From the NCBI GenBank assembly GCA_016744475.1, contig JADGEH010000008.1, positions 1 to 64,000 on the forward strand: 64,000 nt of DNA, given 5' to 3'. The notes under the pieces are model-generated. The model saw only the letters and a program-made list of their open reading frames with translations. It was not told where the DNA came from and ran no database searches. Shown here piece after piece: positions 31,435 through 41,547 of the stretch. The DNA comes from Thiotrichales bacterium. GTDB lineage: Bacteria > Pseudomonadota > Gammaproteobacteria > Beggiatoales > Beggiatoaceae. Every line of letters begins with the position of its first letter. The stretch's first letter is position 1. A program made the translations under genes and the position numbers.

Positions 31435-32295
31435 TTATAACAGTTTTAAGCCTTTAACGATGTCGAGGGTCGGGGCTGCGCGGTTGAGGCTGTAAAAGTG
31501 TAATCCTGGCACACCAGCATCCAGCAGACGTTGACACATGTGTGTGACGACATCGCAGCCAAAGGCTTGCAAACTGTCGAGATCGTCTTCTAGTTCTTGT
31601 AAACGCCAGCGTAACCAACGTGGGATTTCTGCACCGCAGGCATCAGAAAAACGCGCCAGTTGTGCATAGTTGGTGATGGGCATAATGCCCGGTACGATGG
31701 GGATATTGATGGCTTGTTTTTCACAGGCATCGACAAAGCGAAAATAGGCTTCTTCATTAAAAAAATACTGGGTGATCGCGCTATTAGCTCCAGCCTCGAT
31801 TTTTTGTTTGAAAAATGCTAAATCGGTGCGGGCATTCTTAGCTTGGGGATGAAATTCAGGATAAGCCGCGACTTCAATGGTGAAGTGATCGCCTGTTTCT
31901 GCACGAATGAATTCAACCAGTTCATTGGCGTAATTGAGTTCGCCCATTTCTCCGCCCATGCCGGAAGGACGATCCCCGCGCAGCGCGACAATACGTTTAA
32001 TGCCTTGTTCTTTGTAGTGATTAAGTAAGTCACGAATGGCGGTACGAGTGGATGAGACGCAAGATAAATGGGGGGCGGCATTGATGCCGTATTGTTTTTG
32101 GATATCGACGACGGTATCCATGGTTTTTTCTTGTGTGGTGCCACCGGCCCCGAAAGTGACGGAGAAAAAGTCGGGTTTGAGGGCTTGTAATGCTTGGGCA
32201 GCTTGATGGAAGTTATTAAGTCCCTTTTCAGTACGCGGTGGGAAGAATTCACAACTGAGTGAGAAGGTGTTGTGCAAGTCGGCTTCTGAAGTCAT
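31435..32295 (-). CDS. metF: 5,10-methylenetetrahydrofolate reductase
   Basis: MetF reduces methylene-THF to methyl-THF with FAD, supplying methyl groups for methionine. The 286-residue TIM barrel has SCEFFPPRTEKG at the N-terminus (catalytic Glu), VTFGAGGTT, ALRGDRP, FEIxVAAYPExHP-like IEVAAYPEFHPQA, and ITQYFFN. The length fits the bacterial enzyme. It is flanked by palindromic elements on both sides and has no operon partner. Confidence 0.95.
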   Translation of the reverse strand: MTSEADLHNTFSLSCEFFPPRTEKGLNNFHQAAQALQALKPDFFSVTFGAGGTTQEKTMDTVVDIQKQYGINAAPHLSCVSSTRTAIRDLLNHYKEQGIKRIVALRGDRPSGMGGEMGELNYANELVEFIRAETGDHFTIEVAAYPEFHPQAKNARTDLAFFKQKIEAGANSAITQYFFNEEAYFRFVDACEKQAINIPIVPGIMPITNYAQLARFSDACGAEIPRWLRWRLQELEDDLDSLQAFGCDVVTHMCQRLLDAGVPGLHFYSLNRAAPTLDIVKGLKLL

Positions 32296-32578: not shown

Positions 32579-33250
32579 TTAATAAGCCCGGGCGATTTTG
32601 GGTAAGGCGACTTGTTCCATCAGCACCACGCGGTGGGTGAGCAGCATGGTGTCTTCAGGACGCGCATCAATCAACGCTGAAATATTGCTAATCGCGTCAT
32701 ACCAAAAACCGGAGCGGGCATAGACGGCATATAAAGCGCTGCCTTTTTTAGCCTTGGCTAAGGATTGTTTGAGCTTAGGAGTCGGTGGCACACGTTTTAA
32801 TGTCGCGCTGGTTAGGGCTTTGCGCTTGCCAGGAGAAGCGGGCAGCACGATAGACCATTCATAAATTACGTCATATTTGAGTTGTACTTTGTGCGCCGCC
32901 AGGTTGATGGCTTGAACACCGCCTTTTTTGGCTCTGACCTTGACTTCTAATACGGGCTTAGAGGTCATGGGGCTGATTTGTTGTAAGCGAAAGCGGGCTT
33001 GTCGGATGGGTTGGTTGGTAAACCAATACAACATGGGCTGTGCATTCATCACATGCCCGGTGCTTTCTGGAGCCACTACAAAAAAGCTTAAGCGACCACT
33101 GCTGCGCGTACCTGCCCCTAAGCGGCGAGTGGGTGCGCCTGTTTCGGGCGGCGTGTAGACGGGAGAATTATCCGCATAGCTTGATTTGATGGGCAGTAAT
33201 ACAGCACATACCGCGAGTGCTGTGATAATCCATTGGGCGTTTCGTTTCAT
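32579..33250 (-). CDS. DUF928 domain protein, exported
   Basis: This 223-residue protein has a signal peptide ending SSYA. The DUF928 features I recognise are RRLGAGTRS, FFVVAPESTGHVMNAQPMLY, a beta-sandwich-like middle with ARFRLQQIS and VIYEWSIVLP, and the helical C-terminal segment ARSGFWYDAISNISALIDAR. The family is common in filamentous cyanobacteria and sulfur bacteria beside CHAT and TPR genes; its function is unknown. It is divergent from a TPR-CHAT gene. AGGAG lies 7 nt before the ATG. Confidence 0.78.
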   Translation of the reverse strand: MKRNAQWIITALAVCAVLLPIKSSYADNSPVYTPPETGAPTRRLGAGTRSSGRLSFFVVAPESTGHVMNAQPMLYWFTNQPIRQARFRLQQISPMTSKPVLEVKVRAKKGGVQAINLAAHKVQLKYDVIYEWSIVLPASPGKRKALTSATLKRVPPTPKLKQSLAKAKKGSALYAVYARSGFWYDAISNISALIDARPEDTMLLTHRVVLMEQVALPKIARAY

Positions 33251-33556
33251 CGTTGGTCTCCTACCAGGATGTTGGGTGTAACAAAGGGATGTGGAATGGG
33301 CGTAGCGTCAAACAGAGGCAAAGCAGCGATTGGACAGTATTTCTGTTTATGACGCACAATAAGTCTATTGTAGAACTTTAGAGATAATATCGCTTAGAAG
33401 CGATGCCATCCCTCGCAGACCACGGTTTTGCAGACTTTAGAAGCTGTCTGCTCAAGATAAATCGACTACGGTCAAGCTGCATTGGGTCAAACAGCTTCTA
33501 TGCCAGATGTACCAGAAATCCATTCCTTTCCGCAATTGCACAAAAGAGTCAGATTG
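33251..33556. other. divergent DUF928/TPR-CHAT promoter region
   Basis: These 306 bp should contain both promoters. They include the short palindrome E1 (33440-33498) and AAGTCTATTGTAGAACTTTA (33361-33380), which resembles 9060-9079 next to a C element. No operator is recognised. Confidence 0.5.
33440..33498. repeat. short palindromic repeat E1
   Basis: Tips GAAGCTGTCTG and AACAGCTTC. Inside, ATAAATCGACTACGGTCAAGCTG resembles ATAAATCGACGGCGATCAAG of E2 at 44813 (each quoted in part). It lies about 60 bp upstream of the TPR-CHAT start, in the divergent promoter region. Confidence 0.6.
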
Positions 33557-36304
33557 ATGCACCTCTCACGCCCTGTTTTATTGTTATGTTTGTTCAGTTT
33601 CAGCCCATTGAGCTTTGCCGATTGTTCACAGCGCTATCAAGCTGCGCTTAAGGCGGGCTCGCAAGCCACTCAAAAGCTTCAACAATTACTCACAGATTGC
33701 CCGACTTTAAGCGGTGAAGCGCATTTTAGTTTAGGCCGCATTGCGCATAAAAAAAGGCAGTTAGAACAAGCTCAAGCGCATTATCAACAATCGGTGGAAA
33801 GCTTTAAGGCGCAGGGCAAAAAACCGGATGTTGCACTGAAATTAGCCGATTCTTTACAGAAACTCGGCGATTTAGCCCGTATCTCTGGCGAATATGCGCA
33901 GGCTGAACCGCTGTATTTAGAGGCTCTGGCCTTGCGTCAGCAACAAGCGGATAGCGCCCCGTTGCAAGTCGCCAGCAGCTTGAATGATTTGGGTTTGCTG
34001 TATGACCGCCAAGGTCTTTATGAAAAAGCGGAGACTTCACTGAAACGCGCTTTGGCATTGAAGCAAGAGCATTTGCCCGCTGAGCATTACCATTTAAGCA
34101 CCAGCTTGAATAATCTGGCCTTGGTGTATACCCACGCGGGGCGTTATGCCGAAGCGGAGCCTTTGTATCAACAAGCCTTGCAGATTCGAGAAAAGACTTT
34201 AGCCGCTGATGATCCGCGCTTAACTCGCAGTCTGCATAATTTGGCGCTGCTGTATAAGCAACTGGGCGATCAGGCAAAAGCTGAAAAACTGTATGAACGC
34301 ACGTTGGCAATACGCGAAAGCACCTTGGGGGCGGATCATCCTGATGTGGCGAACACGCTGCACCAACTGGCTTTGTTGGCGCATGAGCAAGGGCAATTAG
34401 ACAAGGCTGAGTCGCTTTATTTACGCGCATTGGACATTAAGCGCCGTGCCTTTGGTGAAGAGCATCCTGGTTTAGCGGCTTCTTTAACCGGGTTGGCGGC
34501 TTTGTACCGCAGCCAGGGACAGACTGCGCGGGCGGAGGCTTTGCATCAACATGCGGTGTCCATCCGTGCGCAAACACTGGGCATACAACATCCTGATTAT
34601 GCGAAAAGTTTGACTAATTTGGCTTTTCTTTATACGCAAGCGAAAGATTTCGCGCACGCTGAGCACTTGTATTTACGCGCATGGTATGCGGTGTCGGCAC
34701 GTCATGCGCCGGAAACGCTGTGGTTTGTACAGCATAGTTTAAGTAATGCTTTGCTACGCCAGGGGGCTGAACGAGCGGCAATATTTTTTGCTAAACAAGC
34801 GGTTAATACACTGCAAGGCTTGAGGCTGAATGTGCATGATTTGCCGGAACATTTGCGTCAGTATTTTTTGCAAGATAAAGCCCCTGTGTATGAGCGATTG
34901 GCGGATACTTTGTTGAATCAAGGACGTTTATTGGAAGCCCAACAGATTTTAACGATGCTACGTGAGGAGCAATATTTTGATTTTATTGAGCGCGATAATG
35001 CCGCCGATATACGCAGCACGCAGGCGGATTTTAATCCGCAGGAAGTGACTTGGGAGGTTGAGCAAGACATTTGGCAAGAGACGTTGGATAACAGCTATGC
35101 AGCATGGCAGGCGCATCCGCAGGATACTCAAACCAGCGGGGCTTGGCAGCATGATTTAGACGGCTTTTTCGGCTGGTTACAAGCCATGAAAACCGCTCAA
35201 GCTGAACCCAAAGCGGATGCTGAAACACCGCGTCCAGAAGCGCTGCAAGCTTTTTTAAGTCAATTGGGGACAGGCACGGTGTTGTTACAATTTCTCAGTT
35301 CAGAACAACAAGTGAGAATGATTTTAACCAGTGCGGAACAACAAGTGAGCTATAAGGTGGCGCTGTCTCGCACTGAATTGAACCGTCAATTGTTGGATTT
35401 TCATGCGGTGTTGCAAGACCCCACACAAGATACTCGTGAATTAGGACAGGCTTTGTATCAAGCCTTGTTTGCGCCCTTAGCCTCAGCCCTGCAAGCGGCT
35501 CAAGCGCAGGTCATTTTATTGGCACCGGATGGGCCTTTGCATTACATCCCGCTGGCGGCGCTGCATGATGGTGAGCAGTATTTGGCTGAGCGTTACGCGC
35601 TGGTGCGCTACACCGCTGCGGTGCGTGACAGCTTATTGGTCAAGCCACAAGCACAATGGCGTGCAGTGGGTTTAGGCTTAAGCCAAGCGATGGGGGATTT
35701 TAATCCGCTGCCTACGGTTGAGCGCGAATTGGATGGCATTATCAAGCAAGCAAAGAATGATGCGCAGGGCATTCTTGATGGGCATATCTATCTCAATCAG
35801 GACTTTAATCAGGATAACTTGAAAGCAGTATTGGCACAGGATTGGTCGGTGCTGCACATTGCCAGCCATTTTGTGTTTAAACCCGGTACCGAACAGGCTT
35901 CATTTTTATTATTGGGTAATGGTGAGCATTTAAGTCTGGCTCAGGTGCGGGCGGATTATCGCTTTGATCATCTGGATTTGGTCACACTATCGGCGTGTGA
36001 CACCGCTGTGGGTGCCAGTGGTGGGCAGGAAATTGAGGGCTTTGGGGCTTTAGCACAGCAGCAAGGTGCAAAGGGTGTATTAGCGACTTTGTGGCCGGTG
36101 AATGATGATAGTACGGGTATGTTAATGCAGCAGTTTTATCGTTCTCGCGTGGAGCAACACCTCACGAAAGCCGCCGCCTTGCAAGCGGCACAAAAGGCTT
36201 TTATTCACGCGGGGGATAGCATTGAGGGGCAAGCAGCATTGCCGTATTTTTATCAGCACCCTTATTATTGGGCGGCCTTTATTTTGATGGGTAATCCTTT
36301 GTAA
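33557..36304 (+). CDS. exported TPR-CHAT protease-like protein
   Basis: This 915-residue protein has a signal peptide (VLLLCLFSFSPLSFA), then about nine kinesin-light-chain-type TPRs (about residues 30-400; LNDLGLLYDRQGLYEKAE, LNNLALVYTHAGRYAEAE). A helical linker and a C-terminal CHAT caspase-like domain follow (about 600-915). The catalytic dyad appears intact: His771 in HIASHF and Cys814 in LSACDTAVG, then GFGALAQQQGAKGVLATLW. I chose 33557 for its signal peptide; 33482 lies inside a repeat. The sequence does not reveal the substrate; divergence from DUF928 suggests a shared envelope or secretion function. Confidence 0.9.
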   Translation: MHLSRPVLLLCLFSFSPLSFADCSQRYQAALKAGSQATQKLQQLLTDCPTLSGEAHFSLGRIAHKKRQLEQAQAHYQQSVESFKAQGKKPDVALKLADSLQKLGDLARISGEYAQAEPLYLEALALRQQQADSAPLQVASSLNDLGLLYDRQGLYEKAETSLKRALALKQEHLPAEHYHLSTSLNNLALVYTHAGRYAEAEPLYQQALQIREKTLAADDPRLTRSLHNLALLYKQLGDQAKAEKLYERTLAIRESTLGADHPDVANTLHQLALLAHEQGQLDKAESLYLRALDIKRRAFGEEHPGLAASLTGLAALYRSQGQTARAEALHQHAVSIRAQTLGIQHPDYAKSLTNLAFLYTQAKDFAHAEHLYLRAWYAVSARHAPETLWFVQHSLSNALLRQGAERAAIFFAKQAVNTLQGLRLNVHDLPEHLRQYFLQDKAPVYERLADTLLNQGRLLEAQQILTMLREEQYFDFIERDNAADIRSTQADFNPQEVTWEVEQDIWQETLDNSYAAWQAHPQDTQTSGAWQHDLDGFFGWLQAMKTAQAEPKADAETPRPEALQAFLSQLGTGTVLLQFLSSEQQVRMILTSAEQQVSYKVALSRTELNRQLLDFHAVLQDPTQDTRELGQALYQALFAPLASALQAAQAQVILLAPDGPLHYIPLAALHDGEQYLAERYALVRYTAAVRDSLLVKPQAQWRAVGLGLSQAMGDFNPLPTVERELDGIIKQAKNDAQGILDGHIYLNQDFNQDNLKAVLAQDWSVLHIASHFVFKPGTEQASFLLLGNGEHLSLAQVRADYRFDHLDLVTLSACDTAVGASGGQEIEGFGALAQQQGAKGVLATLWPVNDDSTGMLMQQFYRSRVEQHLTKAAALQAAQKAFIHAGDSIEGQAALPYFYQHPYYWAAFILMGNPL

Positions 36305-36310
36305 ACAAGT

Positions 36311-36871
36311 CTATTGCACGGTTAAGGACGGTGCGGCGGGCAAAGGGTGTGCATCTTCATACAAAGTCACCACACCCACTTTCAAATATTCAACCAGTTG
36401 CATGTAGGCTTTTTCGTTTTCTTCATCGTCAGGCAATTGCGCATCTAATTGAGAAAACTTTAAAATATCTTGAATGAATTCCTGGCTGTCTTTGGGTAAG
36501 GCTTCGGTGCGTTTTTGATTTAAACCGCCTGAAGTAGTCCCTAAAATAAAACCATCACACCATTGCTTTAAGCCGTTTAAGCGTTGTTCTAAAGCCACTT
36601 CATCGCTGGGCAGTAATAATACAAATTGAAAATCACTGCTGTTCAATTGATCGCGGTAATAATCTTGTAATTTAATCAATACTTTTTGTGTTTGTTGTGC
36701 CAGCACATCCCCGGTTTCTATCGGGGGTAAGACTTGTGATAACCAAGCCGTGCTCTTTGAATCGGCACTGACACATAAAAATCCGCATAAAACGCCGTGT
36801 GCTTCGGTCGCATGAATCTCGGATTCTGCACGTTGCAGAGTGGTTTCGATAGCGTCGTACAAATTAGCCAC
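36311..36871 (-). CDS. UPF0149 family protein (YgfB-like)
   Basis: This 186-residue all-helical protein has the UPF0149 hallmarks: EAHGVLCGFLC, then LNGLKQWCDGFILGTTSGGL and the C-terminal YMQLVEYLKVGVVTLYED. In other bacteria YgfB-type genes lie upstream of pepP and ubiH and one has been linked to stress and antibiotic-tolerance regulation; the exact role here is unknown. It starts with GTG inside the tyrA 3' end (8-bp overlap), so translation is coupled. Confidence 0.88.
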   Translation of the reverse strand: MANLYDAIETTLQRAESEIHATEAHGVLCGFLCVSADSKSTAWLSQVLPPIETGDVLAQQTQKVLIKLQDYYRDQLNSSDFQFVLLLPSDEVALEQRLNGLKQWCDGFILGTTSGGLNQKRTEALPKDSQEFIQDILKFSQLDAQLPDDEENEKAYMQLVEYLKVGVVTLYEDAHPLPAAPSLTVQ

Positions 36872-37724
36872 TAAATTCGTCCCTTTTTTGTTTAGCGCGA
36901 GTAAATAAGTCTTCCAAACTTTGGCTGTCAGCGTGGCGAATCATGTCGCTGACTTGCTGTAAATCCCGTGCAAAAATATCTAATACCTGCACTAAAGCGT
37001 CTTGATTCGCCAGACAGATGTCATGCCACATGCGCGGGTGACTGGAAGCGATACGGGTAAAATCTCGAAATCCTCCTGCTGCAAAGCGGAAAATTTCTCG
37101 GCGATCTTCCATTTGCGCCAAAGTATCCACCAAGGTGTAAGCCAATACATGTGGTAAATGACTGGTGGCTGCGAGCACTTCATCATGGTGCATCACCTCC
37201 ATTTCTACGACTTCCGCCCCGGTGATATTCCACATCTTTTGGATAAGTTGATGCGCCTGATCGTCGGTTTCAGGTAATGGCGTGAGAATGACGCGGCGGT
37301 TTTGAAATAATTCGGCAAAAGAGGCTGTTACCCCATTTTGTTCTGAACCCGCAATGGGATGTCCAGGCACAAAACGAGGTAAGTGCTCGCCCAAATGTGC
37401 TCTGGCTTGTGCCGCGACGCTGGCCTTTGTGCTGCCCACATCCGTGATCAGCGTATTTTCGATTAATACCGGATAAATGCGTTGAAAAGCATCTGCCATC
37501 ACGCCCAGCGGTGTCGCCAACACAATCACATCAGCGTCTTTTGCCGCACACGACATATCGGTGTGGTAACTGTCGATAACTCCTAATTTTTGAGCGGTTT
37601 TGAGGTGCTCTATATTGCGTCCGCAACCCACGACATGGGCACATTCTCCCGCCGCTTTTAAGGCGCGAGCCAGTGAGCCGCCGATAAGGCCTACACCGAT
37701 AATGCAAAGTTTATTGATTAACAT
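36864..37724 (-). CDS. tyrA: prephenate dehydrogenase
   Basis: This NAD-dependent enzyme converts prephenate to 4-hydroxyphenylpyruvate for tyrosine synthesis. The 286 residues begin with the Rossmann motif IIGVGLIGGSLARAL; the active-site segment is FVPGHPIAGSEQNGV, and the dimerisation helices follow (SHLPHVLAYTLVD, AAGGFRDFTRIASSHPRMW). No chorismate mutase or ACT domain is attached. Starts at 37733 and 37724 are both possible; AGG about 10 nt upstream favours 37724. Confidence 0.93.
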   Translation of the reverse strand: MLINKLCIIGVGLIGGSLARALKAAGECAHVVGCGRNIEHLKTAQKLGVIDSYHTDMSCAAKDADVIVLATPLGVMADAFQRIYPVLIENTLITDVGSTKASVAAQARAHLGEHLPRFVPGHPIAGSEQNGVTASFAELFQNRRVILTPLPETDDQAHQLIQKMWNITGAEVVEMEVMHHDEVLAATSHLPHVLAYTLVDTLAQMEDRREIFRFAAGGFRDFTRIASSHPRMWHDICLANQDALVQVLDIFARDLQQVSDMIRHADSQSLEDLFTRAKQKRDEFSG

Positions 37725-37763
37725 GAACTTCATACCTGATGTTATGCAAAGACGATAGCGGCT

Positions 37764-39774: not shown

Positions 39775-41316
39775 TTATTGGAATTGAGAGAAGCCATTAC
39801 CATCTTGAGTCGTTGCATAAGTACGTACTTGAACACCCGTTGAAGTGCCTGTTGAACCAAATTCAGCATCCACTACTAAGCGTACTTTATTAGCTTTACT
39901 AGGGATAACATTTGCAGGTGTAATGTTGTCATTGACTGCATCCAAGAAAGTAACTCCAGTCTTATCAAGAATGGTTTGGCTAGTAAACAGACCTGTAGAA
40001 TTGCCCGCAGGTAAGTCAAATTCAAAGACATTAGGTCCTTTTTCGCCTTTATCGTTATAAGCAGTGATCCGTACTTTACCATCAGTATTGGATGGATTAG
40101 TGACACGAATAAATTGCCCATATGCAGAAGTAGGATTCAGAATCATTGGAATGCTGGCGCTAGAACCGCCTTTTTTCAGACCACCACAAGTAGCATCAAT
40201 ATTACCAACATTGTAATCAGGTGCAGCACCAGGACGATATTGAGCCGTCAATGTGCCATCAACGCCTGTCATTTCAACTAAAGGTGTTGTTTGGTCAGGT
40301 TGATAGCAAACAAATACAGAACTACCACCACCCGGTGCATTATTGTTAAAGTTGAAAGTAGCGGTTTGGAAGTCATCAGCCACAGTAGCAGGCGCAGTAG
40401 TCATCACTGTGCTACAAAGTGAAGTAGTAGACAAGAAGACTTTCTCCGCATCCAGCTCACCATTGGCATCTTTAGCCGCGCTGAAATCACCTGTTACCAC
40501 CAATTGGCTACCATCAGTAGCAGAAGATAAAATAACAGTAGGGCCACCTGCAGCAGTCGCAGCTGCCGTCAAGCTACCAGAGTTATCAAACTTAGGGTCA
40601 GTATCAAAGCTAACATCTAGTTCACACAATGCTGCAATTTGATTAGTGCCTTCTAAAGTCGCGCTACCTGCTGCTACATCAATGGTGGATACGGATGGTG
40701 CACCAGGCTTGCCATCTTGCAGGACAGGTGAAAATTTCAGGTAGGTTTTCTTAACGGTGCCACCAAAAATATTGTTATTAGAAAAACCTTCAGCACTACT
40801 GACATCATCATATAAACGATAAGTCAGATCAACACTGGCAGCACTGTCTAATTTCAAGACTGGGCTATTTAAAGTGAACGTATCAGTTGCAGTCACACCA
40901 CTGGCTTCAGGAATACTGAAGACAGTCGCTTGATTGGTGCCTGTTAGTAGGTTATTAGGATTAGTAGTATCCTGACTGGCATAAAAACCACTAATCGTTT
41001 GAGGACTAGAAGTACAACCTGATGCAGTAGTCTGACAGCTATAAGTCAGTGTTGGCGTAGCCAGAGAAGCCGCATTAAATTCCAGACCTTGATCCAGTAC
41101 GAACAATACCGCATAAGCACCAGAGCCTAAAGTACGTCCCGCGTTGACTTGAGCACTATCCATAGTGAAAGCAGAACCGGTATCTACAGCAATTTCTGAA
41201 GCGTAAGTGACAGGGGTTGCAGCTGGATCCGCGCTCATATCAAAAACAGCATAAGCGGAACTAGAGCCTAAAGCAGCCACAACTGCGGTGGCTAATAATT
41301 TTTTGTTAAATTTCAT
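39775..41316 (-). CDS. secreted protein of unknown function
   Basis: This 513-residue protein has a clear signal peptide (KKLLATAVVAALGSSSAYA). The mature protein is rich in Thr, Ser, Ala and Asn, with few charged residues and spaced Cys (SCQTTASGCTSS, STTSLCSTVM, IDATCGG) that may form disulphides. Its repeated beta-strand-like segments fit a surface or extracellular beta-sandwich. No family is recognised. The ATG at 41316 has GGAG 9 nt upstream; longer versions are not credible. A secretin gene lies upstream on the same strand, 231 bp away, and could export it. Confidence 0.75.
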   Translation of the reverse strand: MKFNKKLLATAVVAALGSSSAYAVFDMSADPAATPVTYASEIAVDTGSAFTMDSAQVNAGRTLGSGAYAVLFVLDQGLEFNAASLATPTLTYSCQTTASGCTSSPQTISGFYASQDTTNPNNLLTGTNQATVFSIPEASGVTATDTFTLNSPVLKLDSAASVDLTYRLYDDVSSAEGFSNNNIFGGTVKKTYLKFSPVLQDGKPGAPSVSTIDVAAGSATLEGTNQIAALCELDVSFDTDPKFDNSGSLTAAATAAGGPTVILSSATDGSQLVVTGDFSAAKDANGELDAEKVFLSTTSLCSTVMTTAPATVADDFQTATFNFNNNAPGGGSSVFVCYQPDQTTPLVEMTGVDGTLTAQYRPGAAPDYNVGNIDATCGGLKKGGSSASIPMILNPTSAYGQFIRVTNPSNTDGKVRITAYNDKGEKGPNVFEFDLPAGNSTGLFTSQTILDKTGVTFLDAVNDNITPANVIPSKANKVRLVVDAEFGSTGTSTGVQVRTYATTQDGNGFSQFQ

Positions 41317-41547
41317 CGTGTTAATCTCCGTGAGATAAGGTTTGACTAGAAGCCTTTGTTTTAACATAAAAGCTGAAATAGTATAACAACACACTTGCGC
41401 TTGGAATAGTCATTCAAGCCATTTTAGAGCCATTATTATTCCTGAAGTGCTTGAGTTGGAAGTATATCATGCTTGATATTATCCCCCAAGGTACCAGGAT
41501 TAAAGGTTTGAGCAAGCGGACAAATGGGATAAGCCAAAAAGGCTTTG

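Follow-up and report, generated by a model that had tools for sequence, protein, structure and literature searches.

The question raised by this locus is whether a gene for a DUF928 protein and a gene for a predicted exported TPR-CHAT protein, which lie back to back, are functionally connected and, if so, what the two proteins do. The window, which is the whole stretch of 64,000 nucleotides that was analysed, belongs to a genome of 5.3 Mb in 253 contigs, in which 6 DUF928, 19 CHAT, 10 two-partner secretion (TPS) and 5 CHASE2 matches were found. The gene coordinates and domain features that an earlier note had given for both proteins were right according to the Pfam matches (PF06051 and PF12770) and the open reading frames (ORFs). 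The features of the locus are as follows.

32579..33250, minus strand: DUF928 protein, 223 aa, predicted exported (PF06051, E-value 1.4e-22)
32588-33115, minus strand: DUF928 domain (profile search match in the genome)
33173..33250, minus strand: putative DUF928 signal peptide, aa 1-26, ending KSSYA/DN (sequence reading, heuristic)
33251..33556, no strand: intergenic region between the divergent genes, 306 bp, with an AAAAGAG-containing stretch near the ATG at 33557
33557..36304, plus strand: predicted exported TPR-CHAT protein, 915 aa (ORF, Pfam, start choice)
33557..33619, plus strand: putative TPR-CHAT signal peptide, aa 1-21, ending PLSFA/DC (sequence reading, heuristic)
33776..34675, plus strand: kinesin-light-chain-type TPR array, about aa 74-373 (PF13424, 5.1e-66; PDB matches)
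35438..36295, plus strand: CHAT domain, aa 628-913 (PF12770)
35867..35869, plus strand: putative catalytic His771, in HIASH771F (sequence and alignment)
35996..35998, plus strand: putative catalytic Cys814, in LSAC814DTA (sequence and alignment)

The longest ORF of the TPR-CHAT gene begins at a TTG (33482). The ATG at 33557 was preferred as the better start because the His771/Cys814 numbering results from it and because the congener G001 retains the AAAAGAG-containing stretch immediately before it. The N-terminus thus obtained, MHLSRPVLLLCLFSFSPLSFA/DC..., resembles a Sec signal peptide on inspection and under a crude hydrophobicity rule, and with this rule nearly all of 32 aligned CHAT proteins have a signal-peptide-like start. 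No transmembrane segment was noticed beyond the signal peptide, and the only cysteines of the predicted mature protein are Cys23, Cys48 and Cys814. The TPRs match kinesin light chain structures in the PDB (1.7e-41), and the CHAT domain matches PF12770 with 208.8 bits against a cut-off of 24 (E-value 1.5e-61). The dyad named in the earlier note is present, and the histidine and cysteine are both kept in all 32 aligned CHAT domains; His771 and Cys814 are described as a putative protease dyad, activity being suggested by the residues. A sequence-profile search of the PDB with the CHAT domain found no relative, Csx29 included, and viral contigs scanned for the domain gave no match. An AlphaFold2 model of the CHAT domain, built from two sequences, was set aside (pLDDT 44).

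CHAT proteins with TPRs include Csx29, the protease of type III-E CRISPR systems (Craspase), whose catalytic residues are H615 and C658 (PMC10028731). It shares with the window protein the order of N-terminal TPRs and C-terminal CHAT domain, and its histidine and cysteine are likewise 43 residues apart; it differs in that the window protein is predicted to be exported and carries TPRs of the kinesin-light-chain type. Cas7-11 or CRISPR neighbours, such as those of Csx29, were absent among the genes examined at 27.7-41.4 kb, which are housekeeping, regulatory or surface genes. The same note had regarded HetF as cytoplasmic, a statement that has to be corrected, as HetF is a membrane protein with one transmembrane segment (PMC8406250). 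HetF, a cyanobacterial protein of the divisome and heterocysts, resembles the window protein in combining CHAT and TPR parts and in acting at the cell envelope. It is unlike it in having an N-terminal CHAT part (construct of aa 1-555; PMC8406250) together with the transmembrane segment, whereas in the window protein the TPRs precede the CHAT domain.

The DUF928 protein scored 80.7 bits against a gathering cut-off of 26, and its N-terminus, MKRNAQWIITALAVCAVLLPIKSSYA/DN..., is also Sec signal peptide-like by eye and by the crude hydrophobicity rule; on these heuristics both proteins look exported. An alignment of 21 sequences gave three family motifs (GAPxRR..G.GTR, QP.LYW and GxWYDA), all of which occur in the window protein in slightly changed form (GAPTRRLGAGTRS, QPMLYW and GFWYDA). 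An AlphaFold2 model built from 11 sequences (pLDDT 79) showed a beta-sandwich (aa 56-153) and, after it, a helical C-terminus (aa 158-222). The best fold match of this model in the PDB was the C-terminal domain of MtxA (PDB 4z29; E-value 2.9e-4), a moderate match with TM-scores of 0.48/0.60, of which 0.60 is on the target. MtxA has a signal peptide and Ig-like and TPR-like parts, and the gene next after mtxA in Magnetospirillum encodes a CHASE2 adenylate cyclase (PMC4439547). The DUF928 family and MtxA are alike in predicted fold, in a signal peptide (putative for DUF928) and in CHASE2 gene neighbour, and they are unlike in sequence, since a sequence-profile search of the PDB with DUF928 gave no detectable similarity to any chain. 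The fold match agrees with the CHASE2 neighbours of DUF928 itself, which had been seen before the fold search.

With 6 DUF928 and 19 CHAT genes in the genome, two abundant families could come to lie side by side by chance, and the pair may simply not have been separated yet. In the only congener compared, G001, DUF928 and TPR-CHAT are again divergent neighbours, with 66% identity to the window for DUF928 and 72% for CHAT. For these two genes dN was 0.20-0.26; dS reached 1.7 in DUF928, and in CHAT it was saturated. The G001 orthologues of the flanking genes (a sigma-54 regulator, MTHFR and UPF0149-TyrA-macro) lie on three other contigs, which indicates that the pair stayed together as its surroundings changed. 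On these sequence comparisons, the adjacency is probably not due to chance, as it is kept in a congener at a distance where synonymous sites are saturated or nearly so. The divergent arrangement also recurs with another CHAT subfamily at four loci (L088, L089, L094 and L141). Chance adjacency would be favoured by the closest homologues of the window CHAT protein in the other genera checked (42-48% identity), which have no DUF928 neighbour; this observation indicates that the exact pairing is genus-level. Taken with the evidence from the congener, an accidental pairing is improbable.

In a CHAT tree, the window protein groups with CHAT proteins that have no DUF928 neighbour, separately from the subfamily of the full gene set described below, and the window DUF928 branches apart from the other CHAT-linked DUF928 proteins. 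As both branch apart, this pair appears to have been joined separately. The DUF928-linked CHAT proteins are scattered over the CHAT tree, less so than at random (10 changes, compared with 19.7 with shuffled labels).

Linkage was then considered at the level of genomes. In a class-wide sample of 232 gammaproteobacterial genomes, with DUF928 counted above the cut-off, all nine genomes with DUF928 also had CHAT, which occurred in 37 genomes overall (p 2.7e-8 in a simple test; 9e-7 without Beggiatoaceae). The linkage that the earlier note wanted to see counted is real and wider than had been guessed. At the level of loci, 57 DUF928 loci of the window genome and its relatives (Beggiatoaceae and relatives), selected by DUF928 alone, were inspected; a separate, narrow contig query gave 11 loci. 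CHAT was the immediate neighbour in eight of the 57, divergently in five, and was not the immediate neighbour in the remaining 49. About 0.4 adjacencies were expected by chance, a figure which assumes some 15 CHAT genes in 4200 genes and treats related genomes as if they were independent. For the window pair itself, this expectation is the other point on the side of chance adjacency. In five Beggiatoaceae loci (L118, L088, L089, L094 and L103), CHAT adjoins DUF928 and no CHASE2 or TPS gene was recognised within four genes, L118 and L103 ending at contig ends.

Outside Beggiatoaceae, the gammaproteobacterial DUF928 loci are mostly gene sets with an exported CHAT protein, a CHASE2 receptor and TPS. 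The order is CHAT-CHASE2-DUF928-x-TPS in L155 and L156, CHAT-CHASE2-DUF928-ShlB with TPS on the other strand in L154, and TPS-CHAT-DUF928-ShlB-CHASE2 (cyclase) in L157. L132 has CHASE2-CHAT-DUF928 adjoining ShlB-TPS, L159 has CHASE2-DUF928 with CHAT alongside, and L160 has DUF928-CHASE2 at a contig end; L158 has DUF928 without CHAT, CHASE2 or TPS. The domains of representative proteins were confirmed by a domain scan, and the CHASE2 proteins scanned carry a cyclase, GGDEF-EAL or histidine kinase ATPase domain as their C-terminal output. Among 20 DUF928 loci on cyanobacterial plasmids, CHAT was present within four genes in 14, CHASE2 in 16 and TPS in 11, and each locus has at least one of the three. 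Plasmid pANACY.04 of Anabaena cylindrica PCC 7122 unites CHASE2, DUF928, CHAT and TPS. Fusions were also observed: a single Acaryochloris record holds one protein of 1756 aa that combines TPS, TPR and CHAT and is encoded beside DUF928, and CHASE2 proteins of Brasilonema and Picosynechococcus carry an N-terminal fused CHAT. DUF928, exported CHAT, CHASE2 and TPS very probably constitute a linked gene set.

At the window locus, DUF928 lies beside a predicted exported CHAT gene, and a search of the window's contig for TPS and CHASE2 found none. The earlier view of DUF928 and exported TPR-CHAT as a paired module holds for the linkage of the families; the exact pair is confined to the genus level and is part of a larger set. 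The envelope-side location proposed with it is still the best reading, and the purpose, which had been called unknown, can be narrowed to envelope signalling or secretion, since the pair is a fragment of the larger CHASE2/TPS set.

Members of one gene set may nevertheless serve separate tasks. DUF928 could be a periplasmic adaptor of CHASE2 receptors and the constant part, with the exported CHAT protein serving TPS processing or quality control, so that the two would not act on each other and would be linked through shared surface-sensing gene sets. The cyanobacterial plasmid counts, in which CHASE2 accompanies DUF928 no less often than CHAT does, are consistent with this, as is the gene of MtxA, the top fold match, which also lies beside a CHASE2 gene. 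CHAT and TPS are moreover linked without DUF928 in G217 (L187 and L188, with ShlB) and in the window genome (L037-L039). ORFs of 560-570 aa beside DUF928-free CHAT genes were considered as ShlB and rejected, the one at L189 being a TonB-type barrel and the others resembling housekeeping ORFs. Against separate tasks stand the window pair and the five Beggiatoaceae loci listed above, where CHAT is adjacent and neither CHASE2 nor TPS was recognised within four genes, and we consider this explanation rather unlikely.

The reading that we put forward, tentatively and as falling a little short of probable, is that the two window genes represent a short copy of an extracytoplasmic module that recurs elsewhere. 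Against it weigh the lack of TPS and CHASE2 genes on the contig, the separate branching of both proteins and the 49 of 57 loci in which CHAT is not the immediate neighbour. The fuller module would consist of a TPS exoprotein, an outer-membrane transporter of the ShlB/FhaC type, TPR-CHAT, DUF928 and a CHASE2 receptor whose output is a cyclase, GGDEF-EAL or kinase domain. Sec is predicted to carry DUF928 and TPR-CHAT to the periplasm or the cell surface. The TPRs may bind a partner protein, most likely the TPS exoprotein, and this binding would gate the His771/Cys814 protease, which would clip the bound partner. DUF928, with its beta-sandwich and helical tail, might act as a periplasmic adaptor passing the resulting state to the CHASE2 receptor, which would then change cAMP, c-di-GMP or phosphorylation inside the cell. 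As neither TPS nor CHASE2 is encoded at the window locus, the pair would act in trans with the 10 TPS and 5 CHASE2 proteins encoded elsewhere. The adaptor and protease roles are suggested by linkage, fusion, fold and residues, and the mechanism as a whole is plausible without reaching an even chance.

Control of adhesins by LapG/LapD involves a periplasmic cysteine protease, a membrane signalling receptor and a surface exoprotein. It is the nearest known behaviour for the proposed module, by analogy, as the folds and the secretion system differ. In Sinorhizobium meliloti, the CHASE2 receptors CyaD1/D2/K sense an external protein signal via the outer-membrane protein NsrA and raise cAMP (PMC13001267). 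CHASE2 receptors would answer an external protein signal in the proposed module as well; no mention of CHAT or DUF928 was found for the S. meliloti pathway, and NsrA is a different beta-barrel.

The CHAT protein might instead be a regulated death or defence effector set free when the envelope is damaged, and DUF928 might inhibit it or act as its sensor. Such a role would suit the divergent arrangement, as divergent gene pairs can be toxin/regulator pairs. CHAT proteases are also known to work in CRISPR-guided and conflict settings (PMC10028731). However, both proteins are predicted to be exported, PADLOC gave only a generic TPR model match, and the many CHAT paralogues per genome together with the TPS/CHASE2 linkage fit signalling or secretion better, making this role very unlikely.

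A literature search, with subscription journals mostly outside its reach, found no description of the full DUF928-CHAT-CHASE2-TPS set, nor any paper that treats CHAT together with two-partner secretion or together with hemagglutinin and either CHASE2 or cyanobacteria; on DUF928 it yielded a single paper. An undescribed envelope signalling system common to cyanobacteria and sulfur-oxidising gammaproteobacteria is possible, if doubtful: an exported caspase-like protease would process a TPS surface protein, and an MtxA-like DUF928 adaptor would report to a CHASE2 receptor, changing second-messenger levels. In two phyla, DUF928 and extracytoplasmic CHAT proteins are tied to CHASE2 receptors and to two-partner secretion, and this provides a concrete hypothesis for both families. 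Extracytoplasmic CHAT proteins are numerous, and the linkage suggests candidate substrates and partners for them; it also gives the little-studied DUF928 family a testable role in a recurrent cell-envelope gene set of sulfur bacteria and cyanobacteria. The linkage may also matter for MtxA, whose fold is similar to the one predicted for DUF928 and whose gene likewise has a CHASE2 neighbour. Parts of the set have been recorded before, as TPR-CHAT neighbours were named in Beggiatoaceae (PMC5108060) and CHASE2 and DUF928 genes were found together in one Nostoc species (PMC5587647). The DUF928 protein sll1891 of Synechocystis responds to acid stress (PMC5587647).

A CHAT or CHAT-like domain was also found within other proteins, one of which joins it to a two-partner-secretion (TPS) domain in a single polypeptide, and two of which belong to the CHASE2 membrane receptor family:

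L175:6708-11978, TPS-TPR-CHAT fusion of 1756 aa, Acaryochloris marina MBIC10699 plasmid pREC3
L144:6491-8818, CHASE2 protein with a CHAT-like domain at its N-terminus
L173:3417-5819, CHASE2 protein with a CHAT-like domain at its N-terminus

In the fusion, the TPS secretion domain is N-terminal, followed by the TPRs and a C-terminal CHAT, and a DUF928 gene immediately precedes it. As no signal peptide was obvious in either CHASE2 protein, CHAT probably faces the cytoplasm in these members of the receptor family. A further CHASE2 protein (L168:2660-5809, Kovacikia minuta plasmid pB), divergent from DUF928, contains TIR domains in three stretches. Separately, L186:8589-17318 encodes a 2909-aa protein, predicted to be exported, that ends in a CHAT domain and also carries numerous ankyrin repeats as well as propeller motifs.

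A recurrent, predicted exported protein of 930-990 aa was encoded between the DUF928 and TPS genes at all three of its loci:

L026:9760-12741
L086:6186-8975
L090:6239-9151

A Pfam scan of the L026 and L086 copies gave no convincing match.

MTHFR (31435-32295) adjoins the DUF928 gene of the window pair. In the congener G001, ∼2 kb separates MTHFR (G001:C112:3751-4532) from another DUF928 locus, of layout DUF928-x-TPS, which may indicate exchange between DUF928 loci. TyrA, a prephenate dehydrogenase-like gene, was located near the CHAT gene both in the window (36864-37733) and at L094 (5480-6355), a divergent CHAT-DUF928 pair of another genus. The window also encodes a predicted exported protein (39775-41394) weakly matching the S-layer protein Slr4.
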